From Carya illinoinensis (Eukaryota > Streptophyta > Magnoliopsida > Fagales > Juglandaceae): a stretch of 64,000 bases of DNA. Shown in pieces: positions 5,801-50,870 of the stretch. The stretch covers positions 28,862,254-28,926,253 of the forward strand of contig NC_056765.1 in the NCBI RefSeq assembly GCF_018687715.1. The letters are read 5' to 3'. Position 1 is the first letter of the stretch. The number at the start of each line of letters is the position of its first letter. The translations under genes were made by a program, and so were the position numbers. The notes under the pieces were generated by a model. It was given only the letters and a program-made list of their open reading frames with translations, was not told the origin of the DNA and searched no databases.

Positions 5801-8101
5801 AAATGCCTTCATTTGGGGTAGGTAAATTCTTGATTCTGTTTTGATTGCTAATGAATGTTTAGATAGCCGTATGAGGGAGGGTGTCCTGGGTGTCCTTTGC
5901 AAGCTAGATATGGAGAAGGCGTTCGATCATGTGAATTGGGATTTTCTTCTCTATATACTTGGGAGATATGGTTTTGGGGAGAGGTGGTGTGCGTGGATTA
6001 GGCATTGTGTCTCTACTGCTCGGTTTTCTATGTTAGTTAATGGAATTCCTTGTGGTTTCTTTCATAGCTCTCGTGGATTAAGACAAGGGGATCTATTATC
6101 TCCTTTCCTTTTTGACATCATCATCGAAGCATTGAGTCGAATGGTGGAGGCTGCTATAGGGGGGGTTTCTTTCTAGATTTACGGTGGGAAATGTTAACAA
6201 TGGCTTCATCACTCTTTCTCACATTCTTTTTGTAGATTATACTATTATCTTTTCTGATGCTGATGGTGGACAGATTCAAGCCTTAAGGGGCTGTTTTACC
6301 ATGCTTTGAAGCTGTTTCAGGCCTTAAGGTTAACTTGAATAAGTCGGAGTTGGCTCTGGTGGGAGAGGTGAGGAATATTAACTGTTTGGCAGAGATTTTG
6401 GGGTGTAAAGTTGCTGCTCTACCTATGAAATACCTTGGCCTTCCATTGGGGGCGTCTTTCAAAGCTGAGTCTATTTGGGATGGCGTAGCTGAGAAGATTG
6501 AGAAAAGGCTAGCGGGTTGGAAGATGTTATATCTATCAAAAGGGGGTAGGATCACTCTAATTAAAAGTACCCTTTCGAATCTTCCAACCTATTATCTTTC
6601 TTTATTTCCTTTGCCTATTGGGGTGGGCAACTGTATTGAGAAATTATTTCGTACCTTTTTGTGGGGAGGTATGAGGAGACTGAATTTCACCTTATTAGTT
6701 GGAATCGAGTTTGCTCTCCCATTCCAAATGGTGGTTTGGAGGTTCGTAATTTGAGTAGTTTCAACAAAGCCTTGTTGGTGAAATGGCTGTAGAGGTATCA
6801 TTTGGAAGGGGAGTTGTTGTGAAGGGAGATTATAGATCAGAAATATGGATGTGATTTTTTTTTGGGGGGGGGGGGGGGGGGGGAGGGGGTTAGGAGGACC
6901 CCTTTTTTTCATTTAATGTCCGGGAACCTCTCCAAGGCAGGGTCCTTCGGATCCACCCCTACGGAGTAAACCCCGGCCCCGTCCTCCGCACCCTCGGAAG
7001 TTTCTCTATACTAAACTGATTAAATCGTTGGCTTTTCACCAGGGTGTGTGGCCCCAAAAGATTGTTTGGATGCATGAAATGTTGAACCTTGGACCTTGAA
7101 GGGAGTGATACCCCAAAGAAAGTTAGGGGGACCTACGGTGTGAGTCTTTGGAAATTTATTAACCATACAAACTTTGTTGTGGGTGAGGGTTCAAGGATCC
7201 TTTTTTGATTTGATACTTGGTGTGGTGATCAGGCTCTTTTTAGTGTGTTTCTGGGTATCTTTCGCTTAGCTGCTCACCAGTTTGCTTCTGTTTCTGATGT
7301 GTTAGTCCATTCCAATGGATTCTTGCATTGGGATGTTGGTTTTACTAGAGCTGTACAGGACTGGGAACTCGATGAGGTGACTGATTTTTTTCCTTGCGGA
7401 TTGGGGGGTATTGAGAGGGATAAACTGACTTGGAAGCATACGGGATGTAAAAAGTTCTTGGTTCGGTCCTATTACAAGGTGCTAACTGTCCAGCACTGTT
7501 CTCCTTTTCCATGGAAGACAATTTGGAGGTCTCATGTGCCTTCCAAATTAGCATTCTTCATATGGACAGCTTCACTTGGTAAAATTTTGACTATCGATAA
7601 CTTGAGAAAGCGGGGTTTTGTTATTATGGAGTGGTGCTTCATGTGTAAGAAACATGGAGAATCTGTGGATCATTTACTTTTGCATTGTGTGGTGTCAAAG
7701 GCATTGTGGGATGGTGTGTTCAGTAGAGTTGGGCTGGTTTGGCTTATGCCAATGAAAGTAGTGGATTTGCTTGCATGCTGGATGGGGCTTCGTCGTTCTA
7801 AACAAGTGGCTGCGGTGTGGAAGATGGTTCCTCTGTGTCTCATGTAGTGTATTTGGTGGAAAAGGAACGGGCGATGCTTTAATAATGAGCACTCTTTCGA
7901 GGAAATCTGGAAATTCTTTGTATTTTCTTTATTGCAATGGTCTTCTGCTTTAGGACTTGATGGAGCTTATGCTCATATTTTTCTCTCTCTTTCCCCCCTC
8001 TTAGAATGTATATAGGTGCTTTTTTTGTATACTTTCTATATACATGGGCTTCGCCTATTACTTCGCTGAATAAAACTTCTTTTATTATCAAAATAAATAA
8101 A
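2808..8101 (+). mobile_element. Near full-length but decayed L1-type LINE inside an intron
   Basis: A broken ORF1 (about 2808-3810) contains a segment like the ORF1 of the LINE at 44.2 kb (GQEKRRGFIAILEG). ORF2 begins near 4147 with an endonuclease start, MPKILSWNVRGINN, and VCLQETKLD. The reverse transcriptase core is at 5841-6176 ([28 protein letters not shown]). A zinc-finger-like C-terminus ends near 7850 (WCFMCKKHGESVDHLLLHC). The tail has GCCTATT and an A-rich end at about 8085-8101. Stops and frameshifts occur throughout. The YADD-type catalytic motif reads FVDYT near 6229, so the RT is dead. It accounts for most of the intron between the two DRMY1-like exons. Confidence 0.85.
6857..7105. 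mobile_element. GC-rich insertion of about 250 bp within the LINE
   Basis: LINE sequence runs to AAATATGGATGTG (about 6853) and resumes near AAAGTTAGGGGGACCTACGG (about 7112), as judged against the LINEs at 48.7 and 61.9 kb. Between them is a T8/G20 tract, then GC-rich DNA unlike LINE sequence (CTCCAAGGCAGGGTCCTTCG near 6930, CCCCTACGGAGTAAACCCCG near 6955), ending GAACCTTGGACCTTGAAGGG near 7083. No ORF, clear terminal repeats or target duplication were seen. A SINE or short DNA transposon is possible. Confidence 0.4.
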
Positions 8102-11334: not shown

Positions 11335-13524
11335 TCATGCAGCACATAATTTTAGTTCCGGGTAAGACTTATTCAGTTTTGATAAAAATTCATCACATGA
11401 AATGCTCGCTCCTTTTGATGTTTCTTGGGAAAAATTTGGCAGAATATCCATAACATTAAGTTCTTCAGAGAGATTGCATAGGCATGTCAAGATGGTAGAT
11501 ATTATTTCCAAGTCAAGTACTACACCCTTATCTGCCATTTGATAAAGCAGGTCAATGATTTCTTTGGTTTCACCCTTTGAAGCAAAGCCCTTTAGTAAAG
11601 AATCATATACAAAGGTGTCTGGTGTTAAACCATTAGCTATCATTCTCTCTAAAACACCTTTAGCTTCATCCAGTTGACCAAGTTTTGAAAATCTATTTAT
11701 TAACGTGAAGAAGGTCAAATAATCAGGAGCTAAACCCATTTCAAGCATGTCCATTAACAGTTCCTTGGCAGATTGAAAATCTCCAGCTTTGAGAGTTCCA
11801 TCAATTATAGTATTAAATGATACCACATCTGGTCCATGAGTTACATTTCTCATTTCCTGAAAAAGCCCTTTAGCTTGCTCCAAACTACCCTCCTTACACA
11901 ATGATGCCATTAGAGTATTGTAATCAATCGGCATAGGTCTAAGTCCACAAGTTTTCATTTTACTGAAAAGTCCTTTAGCAACACTAAGCATATGCATTTT
12001 GCAGAATCCATTAATCATAATACTATAGGTAAATGAGTTTGGAAAAAACCCCCAGTTTAGCACATCTTTCCAGATTTCCATGGCTTTGCCTACCATTCCT
12101 GCCTTTAGATACCCACCAATCAAAATGTTATAAGTTACCATGTTACCAGATATCCCCCGTTCAAGCATTGTATGATATATTGCCACAGCTTCATCAAGGC
12201 GGCCTTCCTTGTAGAATCCTTGAATTAACAAATTAAATGTCATAACATCTGGTTCAACAAAGCTCTCGCCAATTAACATGAACTTCAAGAGTTTCATTGC
12301 CTCATCAACCTTTCCATCATTGCAAAGTCCTCTCATCATTGTATTGTAAGTAACCGTATCAGGCTTTTTCCCTGCCTTGGTCATCATTTCCAATATTTTG
12401 AAAGCCCCACTGACAGGGCCTTCCTTGCATAGTCCATTAATAATAACGTTATAGGTTGCAGTACTGGGCTCTACACCCTTCTTCTGCATCATATCCAAGA
12501 TATCCATGGCTTTAGTAGCCCTCCCATTTTTGCAAAGCCCATCAATTAACCCTGTATAAGTAACAACATCAGGGTGAATTCCGCGTTCTGTCATATCATT
12601 TAGCATTGCAGTGGCTTCCTCCCATCGCCCCATCTTACAAAGATTATGTATCAAAGGACTATAGGTGACTACACTCGGGAGAATTCCTTTCGTCAGCATC
12701 TCCTCAAAAACTTCTTTCCCTCTATCAAAACTACCTTTGCAACAAAGGCCACTTATAAGGACACTGTACACAATAACATCTGTATCCAAACCTTTCTCCT
12801 TCATCTCCTCCCACAAGTCCACTGCCTCATCAACTCTACCATCCTTACAAAGACCATCCACCAAGATGGTGTATGTCACAAAATTCGGGTGACAATCTGC
12901 TGACCTCATCTCAAAAAACAAACTTACTGCTTCTTCCAATTTCTTTGCCTTGCAAAGCCCATTTATAAGAACATTGTAACTAAAAATATCCGGCAGTACA
13001 CAATTTCTTCCCATTTCTCGGAACATGACCATTGCCTTCCCAACCTCACCATTTAGACACAAACCCTTCAATATAAGGTTCATAACATACACATTAACCC
13101 TATAACCACCCTTCACAATCAACCCTACAACCCCAAGTGCAAATTCGGGCTTATGCCTACTCACAAAACAATCAATTAAACCACTCAATGATAGAAAACT
13201 CGGTGAAACGCCAACATGGGTCATCTTCTTATAAACAGAAAAGACCAATTCAAAATTTTTCGACCTTGCAAGCGTATCAACAAGAAAATTGCAGGTTGAC
13301 CCAGAAGGCAAGAGGCAAGAATCCACGGCATGATGAAAGAGGGAAACAGCCTCGGAGAATTGAGAATTGGGTTTTTCACAGAGGGACCTCAATCGGGTAT
13401 CTATGTCAGTGTGTGAAGTAACAGTTACCATGGAAGAGAAGAGCTGGAAGTAGGCAGTGACAGCATAGGTGGTAGAGGAAGTATAAAACTTGTGGTGCGG
13501 ATTTAATAGTGCTTTCATGATCAC
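11335..13524 (-). CDS. P-class pentatricopeptide repeat protein (At4g28010-like)
   Basis: A 729-residue uninterrupted, intronless frame with about 17 tandem 35-residue PPR motifs from roughly residue 75 to 690 (for example VTYTGLIDGLCKNGRATKAM, FSYNVLINGLCKAKKLEEAV). There is no E, DYW or SMR domain, so it is a pure P-class member. Such proteins bind organelle RNA base by base and stabilise, process or help translate it. Motif order and phrases such as SLCKEGSLEQA near the C-terminus match Arabidopsis At4g28010 as I recall it. The first 35 residues are low in acidic residues and Ser/Thr-rich, fitting an organelle (probably mitochondrial) transit peptide. Met3 is an alternative start. Codons are intact, unlike the surrounding transposons. 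Confidence 0.93.
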   Translation of the reverse strand: MIMKALLNPHHKFYTSSTTYAVTAYFQLFSSMVTVTSHTDIDTRLRSLCEKPNSQFSEAVSLFHHAVDSCLLPSGSTCNFLVDTLARSKNFELVFSVYKKMTHVGVSPSFLSLSGLIDCFVSRHKPEFALGVVGLIVKGGYRVNVYVMNLILKGLCLNGEVGKAMVMFREMGRNCVLPDIFSYNVLINGLCKAKKLEEAVSLFFEMRSADCHPNFVTYTILVDGLCKDGRVDEAVDLWEEMKEKGLDTDVIVYSVLISGLCCKGSFDRGKEVFEEMLTKGILPSVVTYSPLIHNLCKMGRWEEATAMLNDMTERGIHPDVVTYTGLIDGLCKNGRATKAMDILDMMQKKGVEPSTATYNVIINGLCKEGPVSGAFKILEMMTKAGKKPDTVTYNTMMRGLCNDGKVDEAMKLLKFMLIGESFVEPDVMTFNLLIQGFYKEGRLDEAVAIYHTMLERGISGNMVTYNILIGGYLKAGMVGKAMEIWKDVLNWGFFPNSFTYSIMINGFCKMHMLSVAKGLFSKMKTCGLRPMPIDYNTLMASLCKEGSLEQAKGLFQEMRNVTHGPDVVSFNTIIDGTLKAGDFQSAKELLMDMLEMGLAPDYLTFFTLINRFSKLGQLDEAKGVLERMIANGLTPDTFVYDSLLKGFASKGETKEIIDLLYQMADKGVVLDLEIISTILTCLCNLSEELNVMDILPNFSQETSKGASISCDEFLSKLNKSYPELKLCAA

Positions 13525-14111
13525 TTTGAATGAAGCGTGAAATTTCAGTACAACGGGGAAGAGAAAGAAGAGTGAAGGAAATATAAATATAAAAAAACTA
13601 AATAGGATTCTAAAATGTTAATATCCTTGGATTTTGCAAGGAAAAAGAAGCTTCTTTACCTCTCCTGAGGTTGACGTAGAAGTAGAAGAAGAGGAAGTAG
13701 ATGAAGAAGAAGAAGCCAGCGGTGCTAGCAGTAGCCGTAGCCGTGATGGACTGGACTCCAAACTAGGGCTCGCCTCGGAATTTCTTCGGAAATATGTATA
13801 GTGATAGTTTGCTACCATTTACCATTATGATGCATTTAATTTTTTTTTTATATTTTATCGTTTTTTATATACGTATTCCAAATAATATATAATAGATATA
13901 TATATTTAATAATTATAATAATAGACGGTATAATTTATCAGTTTTATATAAATAATAAAATGTGGTAGAACCAGTCATTTGTATAAATAAAAATAATTGA
14001 CAGAAGAGAATAAAATTAACTTCATTGAAAACATAACATAATATTTATAAGGAGATTAATTTTTAAAAGAGTTGTGAGCAAAAGATATGAAATGAAGTAT
14101 TTTTTTTTTTT
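13525..14111. other. PPR upstream region
   Basis: The minus-strand promoter of the PPR gene should lie here. An A/T stretch at about 13577-13594 reads TTTATATTTATATTTCC on the minus strand and could serve as a TATA element about 55 bases before the ATG. A short minus-strand frame at 13618-13818 is a Ser/Thr low-complexity run (GAA/GTA repeats) with no family resemblance. The rest is AT-rich with no gene. Confidence 0.35.
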
Positions 14112-14168
14112 GGAAAACTCTACTTGCAGGCGCGGAGGGGACGAATCGCGCACCAATTGCTGACGTCA
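14112..14168 (+). repeat. Left terminal inverted repeat of the Mutator-like element
   Basis: Carries GGAAAACTCTACTTGCAGGC, then GGACGAAT seven bases on, matching the right end in inverted orientation. At 14161-14168 it also holds TGACGTCA, a palindromic bZIP/CRE-type site that could drive expression from the terminus. MuDR-type elements place promoters in their terminal repeats; the use of this site here is a guess. Confidence 0.5.
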
Positions 14169-14454
14169 GTTAATAAATGAAATGGTGCGTTTTAAGTTAA
14201 GCAGGAAAGAGAAATTTTTGACGTTATTTCCACTAGCCATTTTCGTTTGACTTTTCCTTGCTTTCATTTGCTTTCCCCTCCCCCCTTCAGCTTCCCCCCC
14301 TCCCCCTCCGCCCCCCCCCCCCCCCCCCAAATCAATCTCTCCCCCCGTATGATACTCCTCCTCTCTTCTCCTCTATCAATCTCTCCCCCACTAGAGTTTT
14401 GATGCCATAACTCCGCGGCTTATTATTCATTGAAAATGATTGTATTTCGTGGAC

Positions 14455-14503
14455 TAAGCGGCGTAGATTCGTAGACTTTGAGAAATCCTAAATTGAGATT
14501 GAA

Positions 14504-14572
<69 letters not shown>

Positions 14573-14735
14573 GGTTTTAGTTATTTGATCTATTATTTAT
14601 GATATATTGCGATTTTTTGTTTTCAACAGGTTAAATCGACGTAGATCCGGCTTCTGAAAACCCTAAATCGAGCCAACAGGTCTCTCTCTCTCTCTCTCAA
14701 TCGTGCTTTTGGTGATTTGGTCTATTATTTAATAG
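14455..14735 (+). repeat. Duplicated leader segment with CT microsatellites
   Basis: Two related blocks occur in tandem. Block one (about 14459-14600) has CGTAGATTCGTAGACTTTGA, then GAAATCCTAAATTGAGA, then a 64-base CT run (14507-14570) and TTATTTGATCTATTATTTA. Block two (about 14635-14733) has CGTAGATCCGGCTTCTGAAA, then ACCCTAAATCGAG, a short CT run (14679-14698) and TGATTTGGTCTATTATTTA. CAACAG before block two resembles a splice acceptor. This suits a spliced 5' leader for the GRF-type gene downstream. Confidence 0.5.
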
Positions 14736-14987
14736 GATAATGATACACTTACCACTCTTTTACCATTATTTTACTACTTATAGTGTATTTAATTTTTTAT
14801 CATTTTCTTTTAAGTATTTTTTTAATATCCTTAGTCATTAAGAAAAAATTTAAAAAATATATAATTTTAGTGATAGTCACTTGCTTAATCATTAAGTAAA
14901 AGAAAAATTTTTTTAAAAATTAAAAAAAAAAGTGATAAAAGAGTGGTAAAAGAGTAGTAAAATAATGGTAAGGCTATCATTATTCTA
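14735..14987. repeat. MITE with long terminal inverted repeats
   Basis: The left end ATAGGATAATGATACACTTA runs on into CCACTCTTTTACCATTATTT. The right end reverse complement ATAGAATAATGATAGCCTTA runs on into CCATTATTTTACTACTC. The arms are about 45 bases, around an AT-rich centre without an ORF. It is nested within the larger Mutator-like element and is therefore younger. Confidence 0.7.
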
Positions 14988-16403
14988 TTTAATATGGTGA
15001 ATAAACTAGAAGCTCCAAATCTGTATGAAGAATTTTTTTTTAGGGTTTATAGTTTTGGTTTTTGTAGGAACATTTTTTGGTAGGGTTTGTGTTCAGAAAT
15101 TAATATATAGTTTTGGGTTTTGATGTGTTTGGCTGCCGAGAAAGTGGAAGAGAATAGGTTCGAAAATTTGAACTTTTTTTATTAATTTATTGTGTGTTTA
15201 GATTGACATCCAACTGGATAATTAAGCTGGTCAAAGGGGTTGTGTTGGGTCAATCCACCCAACCTGGATATCAAAGATGGTTGATCGTTGCTTTAGAGTC
15301 ATATTGTTTCTTCAGTTTATTTTTTATTTTTTTTGGTAAAACTTTTTGGTTTCAACATATCAACCAGCCACCCGCTCTTCAACTGGATTATAATTGATTC
15401 AAATTTAGATTGACCCATATCGACCTAAACCCGATTATATCCAACTCTAATATTATTATTCAATTGCATGCTTGACGCCCTTCAAGTAGAATGTGTAAAA
15501 TGTTTGTGCAGAATGTGTTCTATTAGAAAAAAAGTTGTTAGAGTTCTGTTTGCTTGTTACTTATCTCAAAAAAAAAAAAAAAAAAAAAAAGTTCTCTTTG
15601 CTTGTTTCTTATCAACAACCATTTTGGAGGACAAACTTGTACTACCCAATGTCCAGTGGCCATTTTCTTCTTAGCTCTCTCTGCATGGGAGCTTTTTCCA
15701 AGATGCTATTCTGTAAAGAGATGACATTGCAGATAATATGGATGTGCTGGACATATATGAATGCATCTTACTTTTTGCGTTTTACCTTATAATATGGAGG
15801 GGCTAGTCCCCTAGCCTGGCCTAATCCTAAGTGACTCCTATCATGATAGACCTATAGTCTCTTCAGTCCTTTCTCTGACATCTTGAAACATGATAGAGGC
15901 AATAAAGATGTCCTTGGTTTAATGCTAAAAGAAAATCTCTGAAGATCTTATATTAGTGATCAGCGCTATATAATTAAAGAATTTGTGGAGTATTAAGAAA
16001 TATAATGTACAACAAAAGTCCATCTCCCTCTTTCTTACACCAAAGGACATGGGAGAAGTAAAGGTTTGAACACAGGAAAAGTATTGAAGACAAATTGAAA
16101 AATAATGAAATAAGAGAAGCAGTTAGCTCGCTTTGTGTTGTGCAGTTTTGTTCATTGATTGGGGTGGGTCTATTATTTATGGATAATAATAAATTTGTGT
16201 TTCTGTCTGTGTTCATGACATTACCTCTCTTATTGCCCTAACACTAACATGATTTATCTGTTTTTCATTAACATTCACCTAACGGTAACTAAGTTGGTCC
16301 ACCTCTCTTCTCTAAAAAAATACTTCTAAACCCTTATACATAAACTAAAAATGAAACACTTTGCACCTTATCAACAGTATACTCCATTGCCTATTTTGGC
16401 AAA
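14988..16403. other. Non-coding stretch upstream of the GRF-type gene
   Basis: No gene is supported. There is an A-run at 15570-15590 inside locally duplicated sequence (GTTCTGTTTGCTTGTTACTT and GTTCTCTTTGCTTGTTTCTT on either side). The segment at about 15195-15450 contains several GGGTTGGGTC/AACTGG-like motifs of the sort found in decayed DNA transposons. The rest is unremarkable. Confidence 0.35.
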
Positions 16404-16993
16404 ATGTTGTCTGGAGCAAAGGTATCGAGTGAAGATTCTTCTTCTTCACTTATTACTCATACTTTGAGAAACAATCCAATGTGTACTTGTGGGTCACTCG
16501 CTTCACTTAGAACATCGAATACGCCAAGAAATCCAGGTCGATCATTCTTTGGGTGTTCAAAGTACAATTCTCAAGTAAATAGTATTTTCCGTGCTTTAAC
16601 TTGCAATATTTGGGTGTGAGTCAATATTTTGATATTTTACTATGCCTTTTGTTTGTTTGTTTATACAGGGGTTGCCACACTGCAACTATTTCAAAAATGG
16701 CAGATAGCGATAGCGGCCATGAAAAAGAAAAAGAAATTGAGATGTTAAGGAAGGAGGAAAAGCTTCAGAAAAAACAAATAGCCAAAGAGGTTCGAAGAAG
16801 AGAGGAAGAGATTCAAAGAAGAGAGGAAGAGGTTCGAAGTTGGATGGAAGAGATTTGAAATTGGATGGAAGAGATTCGAAAAAGAGAGGGCGAACTTGTC
16901 AAGAGGGATTTGGGAGTCCAGCGTCAATGCACAAATGTTTGGCTCTATTGTATAATTTGTATCCTACTTTATTTGTACTTCTCACGATCGTAG
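16404..16993 (+). pseudogene. GRF-type zinc finger membrane protein (At4g04775-like), degraded
   Basis: Exon 1 (16404-16574) encodes NPMCTCGSLASLRTSNTPRN and GRSFFGCSKYN. A 94-base intron with GT...CAG ends follows. Exon 2 (from 16669) opens GLPHCNYFK, completing the CxC...C...C zinc-binding GRF fold. A frameshift at about 16693-16700 (FK followed by AATG where one Trp codon is expected) breaks the frame. The next frame gives an acidic/basic coiled coil with repeated RREEEI/RSWMEEI units. A TGA at 16856 replaces an Arg codon in the repeat. Beyond it, a further 44 codons end in a hydrophobic helix (LYCIICILLYLYF). GRF finger, coiled coil and C-terminal membrane helix is the usual order in this plant family. 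Its function is unknown; the GRF finger suggests nucleic-acid binding. Confidence 0.7.
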
Positions 16994-17197
16994 TGAATAC
17001 CCACTAATCTGGGCAACTTCGTGTATAAAGCTTATCACTTGTGATAATATGTGCTTTAGAGTAGCTGTAGTCCAACAGTCTACAAAATTTGTTGAACAAG
17101 TCTTTATTCTGTATTTTGGAAGAGTTGGGTCAGTTCTTTTGAAAAAGTAGGCAACTGACTTACAACTGATCTTGGACACTGCTGATTGTGTTTTTGG

Positions 17198-17322
17198 GCA
17201 TTAGTTCATTGAAGCTAATTTATTATAGAACATTTGGAAAGTATGCTTGTGTTGTTATTTCAGCATTAGTTCATTGCAGCTAATTTATTATGGAGCATTT
17301 GGAAAGTATGCTTGTGTTGTGT
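17198..17322. repeat. Tandem duplication, period 65 bp
   Basis: GCATTAGTTCATTGAAGCTA at 17198 and GCATTAGTTCATTGCAGCTA at 17263 begin two near-identical units that both end with GGAAAGTATGCTTGTGTTGT. It lies 3' of the GRF-type pseudogene. Two copies only. Confidence 0.85.
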
Positions 17323-18413
17323 TGTGAAGATAGTCCTATTTTGGAAATGATCAGGTGCTTGAAAAGGTTATTGACAAAAAATTCAGGTGCTCAGATCTCT
17401 TAATTAACCAAGACATATGCTGAAGCCGAAATGTGCTTCTTATTCTGGACTCAATACATCTGTTTCCACTATCAAGCTGAAATTGCCCTGTTTTATGATA
17501 ACAACCACTAAAGCATCCCCGGTTTTTAACTATCAATCCGAAAAGTTGGATTTGGTCAATCAAGCTCATTAAAGTTGAAAAGTAACTCCAAAATTTAGTC
17601 ACCAAACACTTCACTATTACTCATGGTTAATGCATATCATATATGGGCAACAAACCATTATAAAAAATCTGGGCATATATATTACAAGTTAACATATAAA
17701 ATAAAATATTCGTTGGGTTGTAAATAAAAGGACAAACCATGTGATCAAGCTGAAATAAATGCCTAATATCTGCTATTTGGCCTCATTGGCATCTTTGGCC
17801 AAAAAATGCCTAATACATTAGGACTCATTATGAAATAAAAGCTACAAAGCCTGAGTTAACATAAAATAAAAAATAAAATAAAATAAAAAGCATGAACATG
17901 TGGTTATCAACATCCTCAAATACCATTTCAACAAAAAGGCAAATAAGCACCCTGTAGTTCATTGCAACAAAATATTCCTCAAAATAGGCTTTTACATGTG
18001 GTTGTTTTTCATCAAAAAATAATAACAACCACTCAAGTTACCCATCAAATATAACACTTTGGAACATTTACACATATAGCTGTAGTATTTGAGCTAATTT
18101 TTCATCCGATCTGGATGTTTTTTAACAAAAAATAATAACAACCACTCATCCATAATAGCTCAAGTTGTCCTTCAAAAAATATTTACAACGGCATCCGAGC
18201 TGGATTTTGCTAGTTTGGCTCCACTAGTCTGGGCAATCTTCCCCTTACTCTTCCTTTTTTTGTACAAAACTTCCATGAATCTACCCTTATACAACTGCAA
18301 AGCACAACACACCAAATCAACTCATTTTGCACATACCAAACTCCCATAAATGAATATCAAACTAGATTTACAACCTGAACATGAATACACATTCTTTGGA
18401 TTAGCTAAATCTT

Positions 18414-18592
18414 GGCATAAGCAACCTTTATAATTACAGAATATTTTTGTTAGCTAACTATGGGCATAAGCAACCTTTATAATTAACAACATTTTTGTTA
18501 CCACGATCTGAACATAAGCAACCTTTAGATTTACACAATATTCTTGTTAGCACAATCTGATTAACATAAGCAACCTAGATTTACAACCTTTC
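18414..18592. repeat. Short tandem array, about four units of roughly 50 bp
   Basis: CATAAGCAACCT recurs at about 18415, 18464, 18512 and 18563, each followed by an A/T stretch with ATTTTTGTTAGC or CTTGTTAGC. It lies between the two convergent pseudogenes of the Mutator-like element. A looser direct repeat, AAAAAATAATAACAACCACT, occurs at about 18014 and 18126 nearby. No coding potential. Confidence 0.75.
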
Positions 18593-19246
18593 CCATAAAG
18601 TCAGACCTGGTGGTTTTCATCTATTTTCAGGAAATTTAGGCAGAATATTAATGCATAATAAATCGAGATACAAACCCTATAAAGTGTTTTATTGCGACGG
18701 TTGTGACTCATGCAACCATTCCGGCTGGTTTCCATCCAACCCCATTTGCATCTGTGAACATATAAAGAATTAGTTAAAAATCAAACCAATATGTAAATTT
18801 ATTATGGAACATTTACACGGAATTGGTCAAGCATAAATAACAAACATTTACACTTTCTCGAGTCTCATTCACTGCAAAGCCTAACTCGGTGGCACTAAAG
18901 TCCAACAGTTCCCTTAAGTTTTGTGAGGGCTACCAATCCAATAAGTAGAATATTAGTGAAGATAGTAACACATTATATATATAGTGATTAAATTTTCAAT
19001 ATGTATTAACAACACAATATATTTTCTCCTATCATTAAAGACCCGTAATGCCTACCTGAACTGGAACATTTTGTTGTGTCCCAACATCTGTTTGGCCAAA
19101 TAAATTCCTGCACGTTCCAACAACTTTGCCTTCTATTCCATGCGGCTACAAAGTTAAAGTAAATCCAGTCATATATATTTATTAATAAACATATATTTTT
19201 TATACAAACTAATTTTATAACGGTAAATTAGGGAGTATAAAATGAG

Positions 19247-21905
19247 CTATGTATTTTCGTTAACCTGTTTACGTTTTCCTTTTTGGCTAGACTTCTTCGT
19301 CATGGGTTTCCCTCTCTCAATCATTGACTTTTTTTTAAGAGATGGCGGTCTGCCTTTTCCTCTCACTACATGAGGACTCAATACTTTCTTAGAGCTCGCA
19401 TCTATCGTTGCATCGGCATTATAAATTATAACATTCGAGGGCAGGTTGTTGGTGTGGTAGCCTAAGTTCATTGCATCTAACTTAGCTAGCATATCCTCAG
19501 TGTGCTCATCACATGAAGATGCATTCGTGGCTACTTCGTAGCATTTTTTGATGATACGTGAATATCTGCTAACTTCAGGCCTCTGATCAACCGTGTCATA
19601 ACTACTTCGTATAAGAGTGTATGTCCTTTTTATGTCTTTCCTCCATCGATCTAGTATGTACTTTCCTGGAACCGAACGGACTTTGTTAACTCTCATAATG
19701 CCTAATACATGTCTACACAATATCCCTCTCATCTCAAACAAGGCACATGAACACTTCACTTCACATTCGGCCTCATTAAAGTACACTATATGGGTCACCT
19801 CCTTGATGAAATCATCAACATTAACTTCATCTTCTACATGGTACATTGCAATTACACCATCTTTCCGATGTAGAGTTGGAAGAGTTGCAAGCATCCCTAT
19901 TACTTCTTTCTGCACTTCTCTAAATTTCAAACAAGTGTATATGTCTTGAAAAGTCTTCTCAAGTGGAGAGGGAGAGACGACGGGAATTGTGACGTTGAAT
20001 GAGTGGAAGTCTGCCTCACTTTCATTCTCTATCTTCTTCCTCACTGCATTATCGAACTGATCGACAAACTCTTTTAAGTTTTTCTTAGCATGAACATACC
20101 CGTCAAAAAAAGCATTCATGCTCTCACTTCGTTGGGTTGTACTTATTCTTGCCCAAAAAACTTCTTTCATGAACACAGGTGCCCAATACATACGCTCAAC
20201 GTATAAACTCTTCAACTAAGCATTCTCCTCCAAGTTGTACTTCGTAATTAACAGTTCCCAAGAGCCCTCAAACTTTTCTATTGTGTGAGAGTCATACACA
20301 CAATTTAGTAACTGACTTTTCAACCCAGTTTTGTATGCACCATGTGAACCTAGCTTCTCTGGCAATTTTTTCAATATGTGCCATAAGCAATATCTGTGTC
20401 GGCTGTTTGGAAATACGAGACTTATTGCATTTTTTATGGCTCTATCTTGATCTCTGATAATAGCCTTGGGAGCTTCACCATCCATACAGGTCAACCAAGT
20501 CTGAAATAACCATCTAAATGTTTCTGTATCCTCACTAGATACTAATCCTGCCCCCAACAGAATTGACTGGCCATGGTGGTTTACACCAACAAACGGTGCA
20601 AACGACATTCCGTATCTGTTTGTCAAATATGTCGTGTCGAATGTGATGACATCCCCAAAATATTTGTAGGCTGCCCTACTTCGTGCATCCGCCCAGAATA
20701 CATTCCTCAACCGTCCGTTATCATCCATATCCATTAGTGAAAATAACCCATCATTCTTGTATTGCATCCAAGCAAAGTACTCACGGAGGGCTCCAGCACC
20801 ACCTTTCCCAAGTCGAAGGTGACGTGTCTTGTCAATATAATTTCGACAATCTTTTTCATTAAATGGCAAGTTTTCAAACCCACCCGCTTCTTGTACAAGA
20901 GAGACAAAACTCTTGTTCATTCTGATCCCAGCCTGATCATTAATATCTAAGACTCTCTTAACAGACTCACTCACTTCTCTATTGCAGCGGAAGAATCTTG
21001 ACTTTTGTGGACTTAGGCCGTGATTATGGGAATTGTTAACACTCGACACCGTCAACACTCCTTTTTTGTATATGACATTTATCCTTGCCTTACAGTCTGT
21101 CTTTGATGTCGACGTGGTCTCGCGACATGTGTCGTACGGTTCTGTGCCTTCCCACCACGAGCACACCCCAATGTGACATATCTAATGCTCTCATCCTCAA
21201 ACCTATGACTCCTTTGTGTCATAATCACAAAACCACATTGTTACCCATATCTTTTATAATAAGAAAGTAACTCCTCTTCAGATTTAAACATCATTTCCAA
21301 CTTCGGCTCCTTAATGATATCGGCCCCCTCAGTATGCATAGTATTTTGTAGCCCAGACTGATTAACATCTCTGGGTTCAACAGTATCATCAATATAGGGC
21401 GTAGACATACTTTTTCCAGTAGAGTCGGGTGATATATTTTGGAGTTCATCTACATGGCTTGAACTTGTCGAGTGTAAACCAATTGGAGAGGCAACTGATG
21501 AGAGAAATGGGGCCATTTCATTTCCTTGCAGTTTATGCCCACAAAAAAAATTGTTTGAGTACAAACATGGATAAAAATAAGCGCAGTACATAACAAACAA
21601 ATTTATCACCTAATTAGTATTAGTAGATGAGTTGGCATCAGGACGCTTCACAAATGGCATAGGTAACCACGTATGTGGCATTGGTGGATGGAAACCATGC
21701 ATATAGTTGGGAAATTCCGGATAAAATTGTATTGGTATAGCCTATCATATAAAATAGTAATGATTATGAAACAAAACCAGTCAACATAATGGTTTAAAAG
21801 CTGAATATCTGCTACAGCTCAAATTCCTACCTGGGACAGAGGATTTGTTGCTTCCTCTATGGTAGGAGGTGTAGAGGAAGATGTCTGCTCATTCCCTTTC
21901 TCCAT
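19247..21905 (-). pseudogene. FAR1-RELATED SEQUENCE / MULE-type transposase, recently inactivated
   Basis: Exon 1 (21905-21831) starts MEKGNEQTSSS and ends at CAG/GTAGG. A second exon candidate is 21741-21610. The main body runs from about 21530 to 19247. It has the FAR1 DNA-binding region (KSEEELLSYYKRYG, RYVTLGCARGGKA, SKTDCKARINV), the MULE transposase domain (GDVITFDTTYLTNRYGMSFA, IIRDQDRAIKNA, CLWHILKKLPEKLG) and a SWIM zinc finger (CEVKCSCALFEMRGILCRHV). Lesions: TAA after YKRYG (about 21240), a one-base frameshift around 21115-21130 (RT..RPR to TSTSK), and TAG at 20216-20218 exactly where the family has Trp (ENA-W-LKSLY). The second exon also ends in TAG at its donor. The rest is open, so inactivation is recent. 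Confidence 0.88.
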
Positions 21906-23460
21906 CTAGAGAATATTTTAGAACATTAAAACTCTATGAATATAAATTTATTCAAAATTAATAAAGTCTTATAGAAATTTAAATATGGTATAAACTTCAC
22001 AGAGAAGTGAATCTAGTTGATTCTAGAACAGAATCTGATACTTGAATCTAGAATGCACCTTGCATTGGAGTGTTGAGTTTTTGTATAACAAGCTTAGTTA
22101 TCCAAAATATAATGTTTTACTTAACAAATGTAAGAAAACAATACAATGAATATGATTTTATTTGCTCTAATAATGTTTTATTTGGTTTTTCAGGGATTGA
22201 AACTTAATCCAATGAAAAATGATATTTATGGTATTTTTAAACATCTTCCTTTGATCACCTCATATTTGTCATCAAATTATTTTGGAAATTATGTGTATCC
22301 TGTACTAATCTAATTTTGATATCACATCAATAAGGATTATATGAATATAATTAAAAAATGACAAGAGCAACATTTTTCTAATACGATACACATAATGTGA
22401 ACATCCTTGACTTGCCAAAAGACATATCCTTCTAAAACATTACATATTAGTATATTTCTCTAGTGATTTCAACAAAGTACTCACGGTTCCTATATATCCA
22501 TAAGCACGATTCACATTTCCTTTCCCTATAAAGCACATTACAGAATTAGAACTCATCCTCTCTTGCAAATCCACATACAATTTGTATCAATGAACAAACC
22601 TTAACTGACTTCTCTATTTACACTTGCAGATAAATTACCAGCCCACTTGCAGATAAATTACCAGCTGAAATGTGCTTACTCAAACCGTAGCTTCTGTTCC
22701 TATAATGCTTCTCTTTTTAGTTGTGGACATAATTTAACTTCATAATTTTTGAACTACTTACAAGGGAAATCATGATATACTCTTACAAATAGTTATAAAA
22801 AAATTTCAAACTAATTCTTAAATCATGATAAAAATTACATTCTATTTTAGGAAACCAACCAACACAACCTCACTCTAGCCGTGCCTTCCCCTGCTTTCAG
22901 GAAACCAACCAACACAGCCTCAACCACCCCTTCTTCAACTCCTTTCCTCCATTCTTATGTATGTACACTATGTTTGGTTGTAAATGAAAATAAATAATAC
23001 TTTGTGAGGTAAAGGAAAGCACCATCTAGTATCTCGTTATACAAGAGCAAAAAAATGCTGAAAATTTACATACTTGTTTTCAAATAAACAAGAAAACTAA
23101 AAATATGGAAGCCAATACCTTTTCGGGATGATGATCTTTACGTGTGAAAGCCGAATGTTTCTCCTTTTGAGTTCTATTATGTCCTCTAATAGCAGAAAAA
23201 TAGACCGGAACAGATAAATGAGAGATAAAAAAGAGAAACTCAAAAATGAAAATGGAGAAAGTGAAACAAGAGTTGCTCACGACAGTGCAAATGGTGGAGA
23301 AAATCTGTGAGCTAAACTCGGAGGGCTGGGTCACATGAAACGTGCTTGCAGAGCTGCAGCGGATGGACGCGGATGGTGGACGGGAGAGAAAGAAATCTTC
23401 TCCAACACATTTCAGCTTTTTCCCTCGTAACACTGTTTTGCTTTTCTTTTTCTTTTTCTT
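21906..23460. other. Upstream leader and promoter side of the FAR1-type gene
   Basis: No further coding exon is supported. Local duplications include GCAGATAAATTACCAGC (twice at about 22627-22665) and GGAAACCAACCAACACA(A/G)CC (about 22851 and 22901). A minus-strand frame at 23080-23433 near the right terminus begins by chance at an ATG and has no family match; it may overlap the transposase 5' UTR. Confidence 0.35.
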
Positions 23461-23530
23461 TTTCTAACTTGCCACCTCATTTTCGTCCGCTTATTCGTCC
23501 GCATCATGCCTGCGTATAGAAGTACTTTTT
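23461..23530 (-). repeat. Right terminal inverted repeat of the Mutator-like element
   Basis: On the minus strand it reads CTATACGCAGGC, seven bases, GGACGAAT, AAGCGGACGAAA, matching the left terminus in the two exact blocks. GCGGACGAA then recurs within the arm. The FAR1-type gene starts about 1.6 kb inward from here. Confidence 0.5.
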
Positions 23531-42790: not shown

Positions 42791-44144
42791 GTATGGATCC
42801 CCTTGTTTTGATTAGTTACCGGTCTGAAGTTATGGTAATCAGAAATTTATAGTAGTCGGTCCACTTTCCTCATAGTGCATTTACTTGAATCGACCTTCTT
42901 CTGTGACTGTGAGAAAAGAAGAAACTAAAGTAATCCAAGTACGAATGTTGTGCTAAGAAAGGAAAAAGGTTCGAATCTTCTGACTAGTATTAGATGAATT
43001 TCGTTTTGGTCATTTATTGTGGACAGCCGAACAGAATTCAATTACTTTTACTTTGTTCGATTTTCTTACACTGTTTACTTGATATTTTTGTGGACAAGCA
43101 TTGCTATAGGTTCTTATTTATTTATTTATTTTTGAAGTAAAACCGTTGCCATTCATATAGAACCAGTAACAACAAAGTCAATATCAAACAATAATCAAGC
43201 ATAACCTGAATAAATTCTGGACATTGATGCCACCACTAAATAGTATCATCCACACTACGAACATGCCTTGCAAGTACATAAGCTGCTTCATTTCCTTGGC
43301 GCCCAACATGAGCTACTTCATATACTGCATATCTCGATAGGAGACGTTTAATCTCAAATATCAGATTCCCTTGCCTTGAAAAGTTTGGCTCATGTGAACC
43401 AATGGCCTCAATAATTGTCCATGAATCCCCTTCTAGTAATAAACTTGAGAAACCCAAATTAGATATAATTTGAAGACCCCATGAGGCAGCCAAAGCTTCA
43501 ATATCATCTACTGCATACAACCCAATTTCCTTCCTACTCAAAGCAAATAGAACATCACCTTTTTCATCCTTCAAAATAGCCCCAATACCAGCACAGTCAA
43601 GAGATTGAAACAGAGCACCATCAAAGTTAAGCTTTACCATACCTGGAGTAGGAGGCTTCCAAGACAGGACAATCTCTTTCCATAGCACCAACTGAGATTG
43701 TTTAACAGTAATATAACTCTCAACATATGCTAAACAATCATCAACAACTTCTTGCAACACGCAAGAAGAATCCTGAAATAACTTTAAATTTCTATACTTC
43801 CAAACTCCCCAAGAAATAGATATAAATATTGGAACTAAAGTCACATCAAATTGCATTAATTCCCAAACCATCTCCATAACAAGCATCAGACTTCAAACAA
43901 GATAAAACCGGTGGACAGCGAACAGACAGTACCTTTTGTACATCTGGACAGCCACAAAAAACATGATAGCAATCCTCATCAACCAATTGACAAAGAGGAC
44001 AACCTGCAGTTGACTGAACATTGCGCTTCATTAAATTCATTTTAGTAGGAAGATTATCCTTACAAGCTCGCCATCCAAAATTTTTAACCTTATTTGGTAA
44101 ATTCATATTCCAAAATTGACACCAAAATTAGGAAGTGCCATGTG

Positions 44145-44159: not shown

Positions 44160-47100
44160 TCTCCATCTTAACTCGCAAAGCGGCAACCCCCACGTCTCTT
44201 AGCACATCCCGTCGCTGCCTCACCACGCTGGTCCTCTCCTTCCGGCGCCGGTAGCAATTCTGGCTGCAAATATAAAGGCAAGGTGGTGCCAATTTGTGTT
44301 ATCTTGTTAGCGACGGTTTCCACGGTTGTTTTTTAGTTCTGGGGTGCAACTCTCTTCATGGGGCTCTTTAAAATGTTAGTCATTGATTCTAAGCAGTTCA
44401 CGCTCGTGAAGGAGGGGGCCAGCTTGGTTATTACAGAGAGAACTTGGAAGGTGATGGCTACGGTTACATTGGAACCTGCCTCAGTACAATGGCTGGCTAA
44501 GGCCATGGATTCATGCTCAAAGTTTGAAACAAATGACTTCTACACCACAATCAGGGAAGGTAACCGAAACTTCATTGCTCAGCGATGCATGAATGAAAGA
44601 GGCCGATATTTGGCGGTGGTGGAGTATAGTGGTGGTGGGAGGAGGAGTTTTATTTTCATACCAGAGGAAGAGGATGATGGGTGGAGGAGAATGGGGGAGG
44701 CGTTACGGGAGTCCCTCGTTGTCAACAGAAAAAGTTCCAGCAATGGAGGCGTAAAGAGGATGCATACGGACGCTCAGCCACAGCCTCGTTCCTACCTGGA
44801 AGCACTGATGGTGGTGCAACCCCTTGAACTTTGGTCTGAAATCAAAGACAAGCAAGGACACAACGGTCTGAATACGGGACAAAATTCTGACACTGAGAGA
44901 CATCTAGCAAGCTGTCAAGGTAGTGGTTGCAGAAACGAAGGTGGCGTGATAGAAGGGGAGACGTTGAGGCTCCTTTTGGAAAGGAAGACTCAGCTGATTG
45001 ATTTACAGGCTAAAGTAGACCACCTAATAAAGAAAGAAAAGGAACAAATTGGGTATGGGCTTTTAACGGGCCCGACTAAGGAATTTTTGCCCTTAGCAAA
45101 GCCCAACTCCTATGTGGGCAAACCAGATCATCCTAGGCCTTTGTTAGGCTAGCCCCAGCCCAGCCATAACACCCGGCCCAACGGGTAGGCTCCCAAGTGG
45201 AGAATCCGAAGTGAGTTGTCGACCCGTCCACTGAAGGAAATATCAGTTACACTGATACCGACAGTGAACCAAACCCAGGGAGAACAGAGAACGCCGGCAC
45301 CGATAGTGGACCAGATCTTGCCGTCGCGGGATGCCGGACAAGAGGACAACATGCAGTTTTTGTCTTTTCTCCCTGAGCGTCACGCACAGAATGAAACGAT
45401 AGGGGATGTGGAGTTCCGATCTCCCCAGATGGAGGCTCCCATGGCTTCGGGTGAGCTCCCTGACACACAGAACACGCCGAATATGGGTTGGGAATCAATG
45501 CATCCCCAGGTGGAAGTCCCCTTAGGTTCGGGTGAACATCTGGATGGTTTTTCAGAAGGTGACATCGACGTAAACGTGGAAATGGGGGAGGACTGAGTGG
45601 AAGGGATCTCGGAAAATCCTACATATACCAGCATGGTCCCGGATACTCAATTGGTTGCTGCTCAAGTGGATAACAACGTGGGCATCATTTTTGAATGGGG
45701 AGGAAATAATTTTTTGGGGGAGGATTTTGAGGATGGTGACAGGAACCTTACCCTTTGAATTGCTTATTACCCAGAGATTTTGAGATGTCGGAGTGGGTCC
45801 TCAAAAAGGTAGAGGATATACAACATGTTGTGGGAATGAAGTGTGTGGGTTACGAAGAACAATTCATGGCACTTCTCACGGCAATAGAGGCTGGTCATGT
45901 GCCGAAAAAAAATGGATCCAAGAAACAACGTGAGCTAAAGAGACTTGACTGGTCTTTGAACGAGGGGAGCTCAAGCCGTGATAGAAGCAAAGGGAAGGGT
46001 AATGCTGATTTTTTATGAAGCCAAAAATTTTATTATGGAGCGTTCGGGGGCTGAACGATATCAACAAATGGCTCCGCATAAAAAATTTAATTCGAGAGTG
46101 GAGGGTGGATGTTGTTTGTTTACAAGAAACTAAATTAAAATTGGTGAGCAGAAAATTAGTGAGAAGTGTATGGAATTGTCCATATGTAGATTGGATTTAT
46201 TTAGCGTCGAATGGGGCCTTAGGTGGTATTCTTGTAATGTGGGATAAGAGGGTGATGGAGAAAATGGAAGAGTTTGTAGGGGAATATTCAGTGGCAGTAT
46301 CCTTCAAGATGGCGGAAGACAATTTTTCATGGGCATTTGCAGGAATTTATGGGCCCAATGCTGACAACATCAGAAAACACTTATGGGAGGAACTTGCTGG
46401 AATTTGGAGCTGGTGGGACCTTCCATGGTGCATAGGTGGAGACTTTAACATCACAGGATTCCCTAGCGAGAGATCAGGAGATAGTCGCTTAACCCCAACC
46501 ATGATTGAGTTCTCAGATTGCATTTTTGATCTGAATTTGGTGGACCTCCCACTTGTAGGTGGCCCTTTCACCTGGTCCAACAACCAAACGTACTCTCGGC
46601 TAGATAGATTCCTAATTTCGCCGGAATGGGAGTGTCACTATCTAGAGGTATCTCAAAAGAGATTACCACGTATTTGCTCAGATCATTTCCCCATTTTACT
46701 GGATGGAGGTGGTATTCAAGGTGGTCAAGTTTGAAAACATGTGGCTTAAAAGTGAAGGCTTTGTGGACAAGGTAAGACTCTGGTGGTCTTCTTATCAGTT
46801 TCATGGCACTCCCTCTTTTATTCTTGCAGGAAAATTAAAAGCTTTAAAGAACGATTTAAAGCTTTGGAATGCTCAAAGTTTTGGAGATGTGAGAGAACAA
46901 AAGCAAACCATGATCGAGGAAATACAGAATCTTGATAGAATCACTGAAGACAGAGTCCTCACCCCAGAAGAGTTATCACGTAAGACAAGTCTGGTTTCAG
47001 AACTAGAGAGGACATTATCCTTAGAAGAGATCTCATGGCGTCAGAAGTCAAGAGCCATTTGGTTAAAAGAAGGGGATAGAAGTACGAAATTTTTCCATAG

Positions 47101-49728
47101 CGTGGCTAATTCACATAGAAGAAATAATACCATTGAGATGCTGAAAATCAATGGTAGAGACTGCACAGAGGCTCTAGCTATCAAGGAACATGTGGTGAAT
47201 TCTTTTGAAAATCTTTTTTCAGAATGAGAAGGATGGAGGCCAACAATGGATGGGCTTGACTTTGATTCTATTGAACCACAACTAGCTTCATGGTTAGAAA
47301 GAGCTTTTGAAGACGATGAGGTGTAGGAAGTGGTTAGGAAAATGGGGAAAGATAAAGCGCTAGGACCGGATGGCTTTTCGATGGGATTCTTTCAAATGTG
47401 TTGGGAGGTTGTGAAAGGGGACATCATGAATGTGTTTCAAGAATTTTTCCATGCTGGAAAATTTCAGAAAAGCCTTAATACTACTTTTATCGCTCTTATT
47501 CCGAAGAAAACTAGGGCCTCAGAAGTGAAGGACTTTAGGCCCATTAGCCTTATCAACGGGATCTACAAAATTCTGGCCAAGGTGTTGGCGAACAGACTAG
47601 GGAAGGCTTTAGGAAAAATTATTTCTAAGCCTCAAAATGCTTTTGTAAGGAGTTGTCAAATTCTGGATTCCGTGTTAATAGCCAATGAATGCCTGGATAG
47701 TAGACTAAAATCTGGTATTGCTGGGATCATTTGTAAACTAGACATGGAAAAAGCTTATGACCATGTAAACTGGAACTTTCTCCTATATCTATTGCAGAGA
47801 TGTGGCTTTGGGGAGAAATGACGCAAGTGGATAAGGTGGTGTATCTCAACGACAAAATTTTCAGTCCTTATTAATGGCAGCCCGGAAGGTTTTTTCAACA
47901 GCTCTCGAGGTTTAAGACAGGGAGATCCTTTGTCCTCACTCCTCTTTGTTATCCGAAGGCCCTGAGTCGGATGTTGACGGCTTTGGTCACAAACGGCTTT
48001 ATGACAGGTTTCTCAGTGGGTGACTTGAATAGGGGCCTTATTTCTATCTCTCACTTGCTTTTTGCAGATGACACACTAATTTTCTGTGAAGCAGACAAAG
48101 AACAACTTAGGGCATTGAAGGCCCTTCTCCTATGTTTTGAAGCAGCGTCGGGCTTGAGGGTGAACTTCGATAAATCAGAGTTAGTGCCAGTCAGAAGAAT
48201 CAATAATAGTCAGTAGTTGGCTAGCATTTTGGGTTGTAAGGTAGCTTCTCTCCCCATGACCTATTTGGGGCTACCGTTGGGGGCTACTTCCCGATCATTA
48301 CCAATCTGTGACTCAGTTATCGAGAAAGTGGAAAAAAGACTGGCAGGGTGGAAGAGACTGTACTTGTCAAAAGGAGGTCGTGTGACTATTATCAAAATTA
48401 CTCTTTCTAATCTACCTACTTATTTCTTGTCTTTATTTCCAATCCCAACCTCTGTGGCTTCACGCATTGAAAAACTCTACCGGGATTTCTTATGGAGCGG
48501 AATGGGGAATGAATTTAAGTTCCACCTAGTCAAGTGGGACAAGGTGTGCAGACCACTCTCATCAGGCGGATTGGGGATAAAGAACTTGAAGATGTTTAAT
48601 CGAGCACTTCTTGGTAAATGACTTTGGAGATATAATATGGAACCAGAAGCATTATGGAAACTAGTCGTCGACTGCAGACATGGGAGCACATGGGGGGGTT
48701 GGTGTACTAGAGAGGGGAATGCCCCTTACGGGGTAGGGATCTGGAAACACATCAGACGAGGATGGGGAGCTTTTGCTCACCTAACTAGATTCTTGGTGGG
48801 GGAGGGGACCGGTATAAAATTTTGGAAGGACATTTGGTGTGGGGAGATGGCTTTAAAAGATGCGTTTCCTACCGTGTTCCGTGTGGCATGTGATCCAGAA
48901 GCTTCGGTGTCGGATTTTTTGGTTCGTTCAGGAGATCAAGCCCAATGGAATGTCACCTTCAGTAGAGCAGCTCAAGATTGGGAAATAGACAGCTTTGAGG
49001 CTTTTTTCAGCCTATTATACTCCACGAAGCTTATTGACTTGCGAGAAGATAAATTGTGGTGGACACCTGCGGGTAAGGGGAACTTCTCGGTTCGCTCTTT
49101 CTATAAATCCCTTGTAACCACACCAAATAGTCAGTTCCCTTGGAAAAATTTGTGGAGGAATAAGGCCCCACCTAAAGCACTCTTTTTCGTTTGGTCAATG
49201 GCTCTGGGCAAGATTCTGACGACAGATAATCTGCGAAAGCGCCGGGTAATTATTGCAGACTGGTGTTGTATGTGTAAGAAAGCTGGAGAGACCGTTGATC
49301 ATCTGTTGTTACATTGTGAGACAGCTAGAGCCTTGTGGTGTGAAGTGTTTAACAGAATCGGTTTAAATTGGGTGATGCCTGCTACAGTGACTGAGTTATT
49401 GGCCAGTTGGGGGATGCCGGGTGGACTACCACAGATCAAAGCTGTGTGGAAAATGGTTCCAATCTGTGTTATGTGGTGCATATGGCGAGAGCGGAATGAG
49501 CGGACTTTCGAAGACAAAGAGCGCACTCTAGTGGAGCTTCGCTCTCTTTTTTTCACCTCTCTTGTCCTTTGGGCCATTGCTGTAAATTTTAATGGCCAAA
49601 ATATGCACGATTTCCTTATGTCTTCTTTAGCAACTTAGATAGGTTTTATCTCTTGTATAACTTCTTGTTTTACTTGGGCTATGCCTATTCATATTAATAC
49701 TATCGTTTACCTATATAAAAAAAATAAA
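44160..49728 (+). mobile_element. Youngest full-length L1-type LINE, with perfect 15-bp duplication
   Basis: A 200-base GC-richer 5' leader is followed by ORF1 (44358-45150, MGLFKMLVIDSKQF, then a Lys/Glu coiled region, a TAG, and more ORF1 to 45596 and 45755-46018). ORF2 begins at 46015: endonuclease (MKPKILLWSVRGLN, VCLQETKLK, WCIGGDFNITGF, CSDHFPILLD), RT ([27 protein letters not shown] intact near 48060-48090) and zinc-finger-like C-terminus (WCCMCKKAGETVDHLLLHC) to a TAG at 49636. About seven lesions break ORF2: a frameshift near 46710, TGA 47225, TAG near 47323, TGA 47819, a frameshift near 47955, TAG 48214 and TGA 48619. The A-rich tail ends at the duplication. Confidence 0.92.
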
Positions 49729-49743: not shown

Positions 49744-50208
49744 CCCCAACAATAGAGTCAAACAAATTCAAGGCTAGATGATACCCAGACTTTACAGAAT
49801 ATACACCATTCTTTGTGCCACTCCACACAAATTTATCTTCACACTCTCTTGAAAATATGGGAAGATGAATAATTGCATTCGCAACAATAGGAGGAAAAAC
49901 TGCTTGTATTAAATCCATATTCCAAGTTCTTTGACCCAAATTCATAGGCAACTTCACCTTAGAATCATCTTGTAAAACATAAGTAGGAGGTAACATCCTA
50001 GGTAACCAGAAAATTGGTACCGATTTATCATGAAGGATTCTGACTCTATCTCCATTCCCTATCCTCCAAATGCACCCATTCTGCAAAAGAGACTTAGCAG
50101 CACAAATACTAAGCCATACATGAGAGGACTTCCTATTTACAAGAGATTGAAGAAAATCTGTGGTAGGAAAATACTTAGCTTTAAAAACTCAATAAAGTAA
50201 AGAATGAG

Positions 50209-50870
50209 TATGTTTATGGTATGTTTATGGTACGTGTGTTCTACAAGTCCCTAACACAAACGCATCACTCTCAGTTTCCATGGAAAAGACTGTGGAAACA
50301 CAAGGCGCCCCTCAAAGTTGCCTTCTTTGTGTGGTCAGCTACCCTGGGGAAGATCTTCACAACGGACAATCTGAGAAAACGAAGGGTGATCATTGTAGAT
50401 TGGTGTTGTATGTGCAGAAACGGGGGAGAATCTGTGGATCATCTTCTACTACACTGCGAGGTAGCTAGAGGGTTGTGGAACAAGGTTTTTAGTAGACTAG
50501 ACTTGGGTTGGGTTATGCCGGAGACCGTAGTGGCAACACTAGCTTGCTGGACTGACCTAAGGGGTAACAACCAGATTAAGGCTTTATGGAAGATGATTCC
50601 GATTTGCATCCTGTGGTGCGTATGGCAGGAGCGCAATGCACGGACGTTCGAGGACAAAGAGAGATCGATGAAGGAGTTGAAAGCTTTCTTTTTTAGAGCT
50701 CTTTGTACTTGGGCCATCGCCGTTAATTTTAATGGCCAAGATTTTCGTGATTTCCTTATTTCTTTCGTTCCTATGTAGTTAGGACATTCTTTGTACTGAA
50801 CAAGGCTTTTGCCTATTCTTTTATTAATATACTTCTTACTTTTCTAAAAAAAAAAAAAGAAAGAAAAAAA
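50209..50870 (+). mobile_element. 5'-truncated LINE, last 560 bp of ORF2 plus tail
   Basis: An open frame (about 50221-50778) encodes the ORF2 C-terminus (FPWKRLWKHKAPLKVAFFVW, WCCMCRNGGESVDHLLLHC) and ends in TAG. A GCCTATT...TTAATATACTT tail and A-run to 50870 follow. It closely matches the 5.6 kb LINE at 44.2 kb and lies inside the same older minus-strand LINE. TATGTTTATGG is doubled at the 5' junction (50209-50231). No clear target duplication. Confidence 0.85.

Follow-up and report, generated by a model that had tools for sequence, protein, structure and literature searches.

The 64,000-nucleotide stretch of pecan (Carya illinoinensis) DNA analyzed here (NC_056765.1, positions 28,862,254 to 28,926,253 of the forward strand; hereafter, the window) probably carries a decayed two-gene Mutator-like element (MULE) of the walnut family, in which a FAR1/MULE/SWIM transposase is accompanied by a protein with a GRF zinc finger. 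The element spans approx. 9.4 kb between its termini. As judged from sequence comparisons, the GRF gene has most likely been inherited as the second gene of a MULE lineage of the walnut family, because five adjoining pairs of such genes were found in pecan and walnut, the pairs fall into three transposase lineages, and the distances of the two partners are correlated. These pairs and their correlated divergence lend support to the proposal, made in a preliminary description of this DNA, that a GRF protein is the second gene of a FAR1-type MULE. MULE accessory genes are few and poorly understood; if the interpretation is true, a GRF protein recurring next to FAR1-type transposases would constitute a new class of accessory protein, and many pecan and walnut GRF genes named 'uncharacterized' or 'hypothetical' could be relabelled as element genes.

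Termini and gene arrangement

The element appears to be delimited by inward-facing termini that, as described previously, share one motif: GCAGGC-N7-GGACGAAT occurs in exact form at 14126-14146 (+) and at 23493-23513 (-), and a search of the 64 kb revealed no further site with up to 2 mismatches and four sites with 3 mismatches. The ungapped inverted arms that include the motif (14119-14146 and 23493-23520) are 28 nt long and 71% complementary; they were seen in a single copy, that of the window, and may be compared with the range of 14-500 bp given for MULEs (PMC6446971). The best arm score observed, 29, was equalled or exceeded in 1 of 300 dinucleotide shuffles (mean 20.3, maximum 33), a result that provides modest support only, because the two 501-base flanks that were shuffled had been picked once the motif was already known. 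An additional GGACGAA is found by the right terminus, at 23482-23488, so that GGACGAA is present twice at this end. The features of the element are as follows:

14119-14146 (+): left terminus, a short imperfect inverted repeat with the motif at 14126-14146
14726-14994 (no strand): inverted repeat resembling a miniature inverted-repeat transposable element, between the left terminus and the GRF coding region; arms of 74 nt, 73%
16404-16574 (+): first coding exon of the GRF gene, with PF06839; matches to relatives extend to 16344-16353
16669-16990 (+): second exon of the GRF gene, from matches to relatives, with the fourth cysteine, a charged helix, and the C-terminal hydrophobic tail
18175-18303 (-): alternative last exon of the transposase gene, as in the P0024 gene model
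18692-19145 (-): 3' exons of the transposase gene (19145-19053, approx. 18929-18849, and 18745-18692), from matches to P0024 and P0025
19265-21741 (-): main FAR1-MULE-SWIM coding region, the upstream part of which contains an intron, from homology and Pfam
21831-21905 (-): first coding exon of the transposase gene, from a match to P0025 (72%, 25 residues)
23493-23520 (-): right terminus, the inverted counterpart of the left, from the arm match and the motif

A long CT microsatellite (14507-14570) also lies upstream of the GRF coding region.

Two convergent, intron-containing genes had been described between the termini, and this arrangement was confirmed: matches to the GRF gene (+) end at 16990 and those to the transposase gene (-) at 18692 or 18175, and introns in both genes are indicated by homology to relatives. 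That each gene starts from its own terminus, as had been described, can be taken only as a possibility: the start codon of the GRF gene lies approx. 2.3 kb inside the left end and that of the transposase gene approx. 1.6 kb inside the right end. When 143 proteins were compared with the window by tblastn, all 321 matches fell inside the element, and no second copy of either gene was detected elsewhere in the 64 kb.

The two genes of the window copy

On the plus strand, the GRF domain (PF06839) was recognized with an E value of 3.4e-10 (40.3 bits versus a cut-off of 25.9), and it was the sole Pfam match of the N-terminal 66 residues of this second protein. The first exon encodes cysteines 1-3 of the four that characterize the finger. 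The gene is interrupted by a frameshift at approx. 16694-16696 and by an in-frame stop at 16856-16858, beyond which the membrane-like helix is encoded; the GRF finger/coiled-coil/membrane-helix protein described earlier is found in full only in relatives. Two of these, P0001 and P0002, match the window gene with 88% identity and lack both breaks. In three Juglans gene models (P0022, P0023, and P0161, the last of which is known by its last 22 residues alone), the segment after the intron is in another frame and the fourth cysteine is absent. In the window, the same frame would be obtained if the intron ended 1 nt further on, at 16670, where there is no AG; because such a splice would drop the fourth cysteine and would still meet the stop at 16856-16858, the window gene is regarded as broken.

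The minus-strand gene encodes a MULE transposase domain (PF10551; E 6e-36, 123.3 bits versus a cut-off of 27.6) and, C-terminal to it, a SWIM domain (E 1.8e-6). The FAR1 domain (E 3.5e-4, 21.7 bits) falls under its cut-off of 28.1, and its region is cut by a frameshift; close relatives, e.g., P0024 and P0025, are annotated with PF03101, PF10551, and PF04434. In particular, the lesions of this gene comprise stops at 21241-21243 and 20216-20218 and the frameshift at approx. 21110-21111. Pecan protein P0024 is 95% identical to the main region over 615 residues and does not have these breaks. No relatives of P0024 were confirmed among viral contigs.

Thus, both genes of the preliminary description are present (PF06839 and PF10551), but not as working genes, since each contains frameshifts or stops. 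As far as the reading frames tell, the window copy is decayed, and neither gene as it stands encodes a full-length product. It is probably a relic that is not very old, because close unbroken relatives exist (P0024, P0001, and P0002).

Pairing of GRF and transposase genes in pecan and walnut

The GRF family was collected by searches that returned 23 proteins and then, using their alignment, 42, of which 41 were matches from Carya (28) and Juglans (13); at the sensitivity used, the family was found only in these two genera of Juglandaceae. Transposases were represented by the best 120 of 1216 matches, with one name per cluster. Among the matches listed, the proteins closest to the two window genes are from pecan. 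Locus tags were shown for 27 of the 41 Juglandaceae GRF rows and for 44 Juglandaceae transposase rows; two tagged Acer transposases were excluded from the pairing count, as no Acer GRF protein had been found. Adjacency was judged by tag, one gene corresponding to a step of 100 in pecan and of 1 in walnut. Among the matches listed, five GRF/FAR1-type transposase pairs, three in pecan and two in walnut, have consecutive tags:

CIPAW_07G027100/027200: pecan, chromosome 7
CIPAW_13G125800/125900: pecan, chromosome 13
CIPAW_15G141100/141000: pecan, chromosome 15
F2P56_014987/014988: Juglans regia
F2P56_027603/027602: Juglans regia

For each pair, the same longest contig is given for both proteins. 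The next smallest distances between GRF and transposase tags among the matches listed are 34, 55, 85, 92, and 100, with none at 2-33. Under uniform placement of the 27 GRF and 44 transposase genes over the tag range seen per chromosome, 0.028 adjacent pairs are expected versus five observed (Poisson P approx. 1.5e-10); this expectation is conservative, because the tag range used is likely too short. The five tagged pairs may also be enclosed by termini in common with the window copy.

Moreover, the two genes appear to have diverged together. Across six pairs (the window copy and the five tagged pairs), GRF and transposase identities are correlated (r 0.79, a value as high being reached in 11 of 720 permutations). 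One of the paired GRF models entering this comparison, P0021, is short (120 residues), and for the window transposase the comparison began at the FAR1 remnant. In a 121-row transposase tree, the pairs are distributed among three lineages, each of which includes both Carya and Juglans rows: one contains the window and the three pecan pairs, another F2P56_014988, and the third F2P56_027602. In the GRF tree, F2P56_027603 belongs to a starred clade of 11 rows (4 Carya, 7 Juglans), a starred clade made up of Carya alone unites the window with the partners from chromosomes 7 and 13, and the chromosome 15 partner is located in a weaker mixed clade; both trees place the window among Carya proteins. 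These groupings are consistent with a pairing that predates the split between Carya and Juglans.

The transposase tree also contains two Acer saccharum proteins, P0096 and P0142, which, together with P0055, form short branches nested within a Juglandaceae clade; horizontal transfer or contamination is possible for the nested maple transposases.

Relationship to known elements

The combination of a transposase with a second gene is known from MuDR of maize, which carries mudrA and mudrB (PMC6446971), and in the MUDR group, PMD is found in antisense orientation in most members (PMC6446971). The window element differs in that its transposase has a FAR1 domain and its second protein matches the GRF family alone. 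Membership in the MuDR family was therefore rejected, the second protein having matched only PF06839, with no PMD-type open reading frame (ORF); the earlier designation 'MuDR-like' holds as an analogy of layout only, and that layout is seen in the window copy.

The domain layout, on which the placement rests, instead suggests an affinity with the Jittery group, whose members occur in dicots and monocots and have an N-terminal FAR1 domain, a C-terminal SWIM or CCHC domain, and terminal inverted repeats of 39-292 bp or none (PMC6446971). Likewise, in the window (with FAR1 under its cut-off) and in close relatives, FAR1 is N-terminal and SWIM lies C-terminal to the MULE domain. FAR1 is also present in half of the members of the plant-containing Hop sub-group (PMC6446971). 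Both Jittery and this sub-group, however, have one ORF each (PMC6446971), whereas the window carries a second gene with a GRF finger. Second genes of other kinds have been described. Mutyl, of the Hop group, has an antisense second ORF, MutB, with a stated DNA-binding role; however, it is a yeast element, the finger is of the C2H2 type, and no GRF protein is named in the relevant part of the survey (PMC6446971). VANDAL21, which also belongs to a MULE group (PMC6446971), carries VANB and VANC beyond VANA (PMC5735166); VANC differs in acting against silencing, and the part of that report concerned with it does not mention a GRF finger (PMC5735166).

The domain set is shared with the FRS/FHY3-FAR1 host transcription factors, and FAR1-RELATED SEQUENCE is the name given to many of the relatives in pecan and walnut. 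Its lesions, its position between inverted termini, and its numerous close relatives would mark the window copy as an element and not as a domesticated gene. Neither the main text of the MULE survey (PMC6446971) nor that of a paper on FAR1 genes (PMC8599713) contains the word GRF. In the open-access literature, the papers listed by matching of GRF terms with transposon or MULE terms lacked the GRF terms, apart from single occurrences of GRF-type in PMC9743578 and PMC11734081 and three papers that, by title, concern topoisomerase, spinach, and liver cancer. The layout is thus of a known kind, and the GRF partner is new within the literature searched.

The GRF protein and its possible role

A custom-written four-cysteine pattern fits 32 of the 41 GRF relatives, and in 22 of the 41 the C-terminal hydrophobic stretch is above a hydrophobicity threshold of 1.6. 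From its composition, this tail is predicted to be seated in a membrane. To our knowledge, no transposition model includes a membrane-like tail. In an AlphaFold model of the GRF protein, the finger region is fairly confident, and helices are placed at residues 94-164 and, C-terminally, at 172-190. In a profile search, the GRF fingers of NEIL3 ranked first (E 2.2e-5), and they were also the top, though weak, match of the model in Foldseek (E 0.012); the Pfam annotation of the GRF relatives is PF06839 or nothing. The NEIL3 fingers are described as suited to single-stranded and forked DNA, both of which they bind in mouse (PMC9266487).

It is conceivable, and is proposed here tentatively, that a FAR1-type MULE lineage predating the Carya-Juglans split possesses a true transposition accessory in the form of a GRF/coiled-coil/tail-anchored protein, i.e., a membrane-tethered binder of single-stranded DNA that would aid transposition. 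In such a scheme, the transposase would bind the GGACGAAT-bearing ends and move the element, while the GRF protein would self-associate via its helix, bind DNA that is single-stranded or gapped, either where ends have been excised or at gaps in the target, and be anchored by its tail in the endoplasmic reticulum or nuclear-envelope membrane; held there, it might promote reinsertion. Taken as a whole, from action on the ends to membrane-held reinsertion, this mechanism is less likely than not. Other plant GRF expansions could have the same origin, and GRF-MULE adjacency in other plants offers a direct test opened by the finding.

Alternative explanations

Several observations weigh against the two-gene element and the role proposed for its GRF protein. 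The five pairs are defined by tag order, and convergence and termini belong to the window copy, in which both genes are broken. Among the matches listed, a next-door partner is missing for 22 of the 27 GRF genes and 39 of the 44 transposase genes with tags, and the nearest relationships inside the Carya clade disagree between the GRF and transposase trees. At the ends of the window copy, only T-runs, at uneven offsets, match as an 8-11 bp target-site duplication; they were rejected as uninformative. As for the protein, nine of the 41 relatives fail the four-cysteine pattern and 19 miss the tail threshold, including the paired P0013 (1.03); three similar tails are narrowly under it at 1.52, and several gene models lack a tail. 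The AlphaFold model is of low overall confidence (mean pLDDT 69.8, pTM 0.30), and all of its Foldseek matches had E values above 0.001.

Some of these points would fit a chance neighbourhood, in which two gene types that are both abundant cluster in repeat-rich DNA and the match of the termini is coincidental: the termini are short, no target duplication was recognized in the window, and a listed partner is absent for 22 of the 27 tagged GRF genes. Clustering alone, however, would give a spread of distances, whereas the five pairs all lie at a distance of exactly 1, with none at 2-33; together with the rarity of the arm score among the shuffles (1 in 300), this makes coincidence highly improbable. 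It is likewise improbable, if less so, that a MULE copy acquired the GRF gene from the host, as Pack-MULEs do, and carries it as a passenger without a role. MULEs tend to acquire fragments of host genes (PMC6446971), and capture fits the window copy taken alone; but to account for five pairs that are spread over two genera and three transposase lineages and whose partners diverged in a correlated way, either a single ancient acquisition or many captures in parallel would be needed, and the zinc ligands have been retained in 32 of the 41 relatives.

The main functional rival leaves the element as it is and assigns the GRF protein a role against silencing, like that of VANC of VANDAL, instead of a part in the transposition reaction; this is rather unlikely, in an estimate that overlaps with that for the two-gene element, the anatomy being common to both. 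Action on silencing is known for some MULE accessory genes, as VANC of VANDAL21 causes methylation to be lost in a sequence-specific manner (PMC5735166), and GGACGAA is present twice at the right end of the window element. On the other hand, binding to single-stranded DNA is known for the GRF fingers of NEIL3 (PMC9266487), and a membrane tail would be unlike a chromatin factor.

Other features of the window

An open PPR reading frame (11335-13617, -) has its upstream side facing the element, its first methionine and the left terminus being approx. 0.6 kb apart; MULEs frequently insert near genes. Retroelement-like fragments were noted at 7209-7847, 43236-43892, 46009-46734, 48622-49638, 50185-50778, and 51974-52624; they contain zf-RVT (four), RNase H-like, and endonuclease domains and were read as remains of long interspersed nuclear elements. 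The G+C content of the segment 38001-40000 is very low (0.209).

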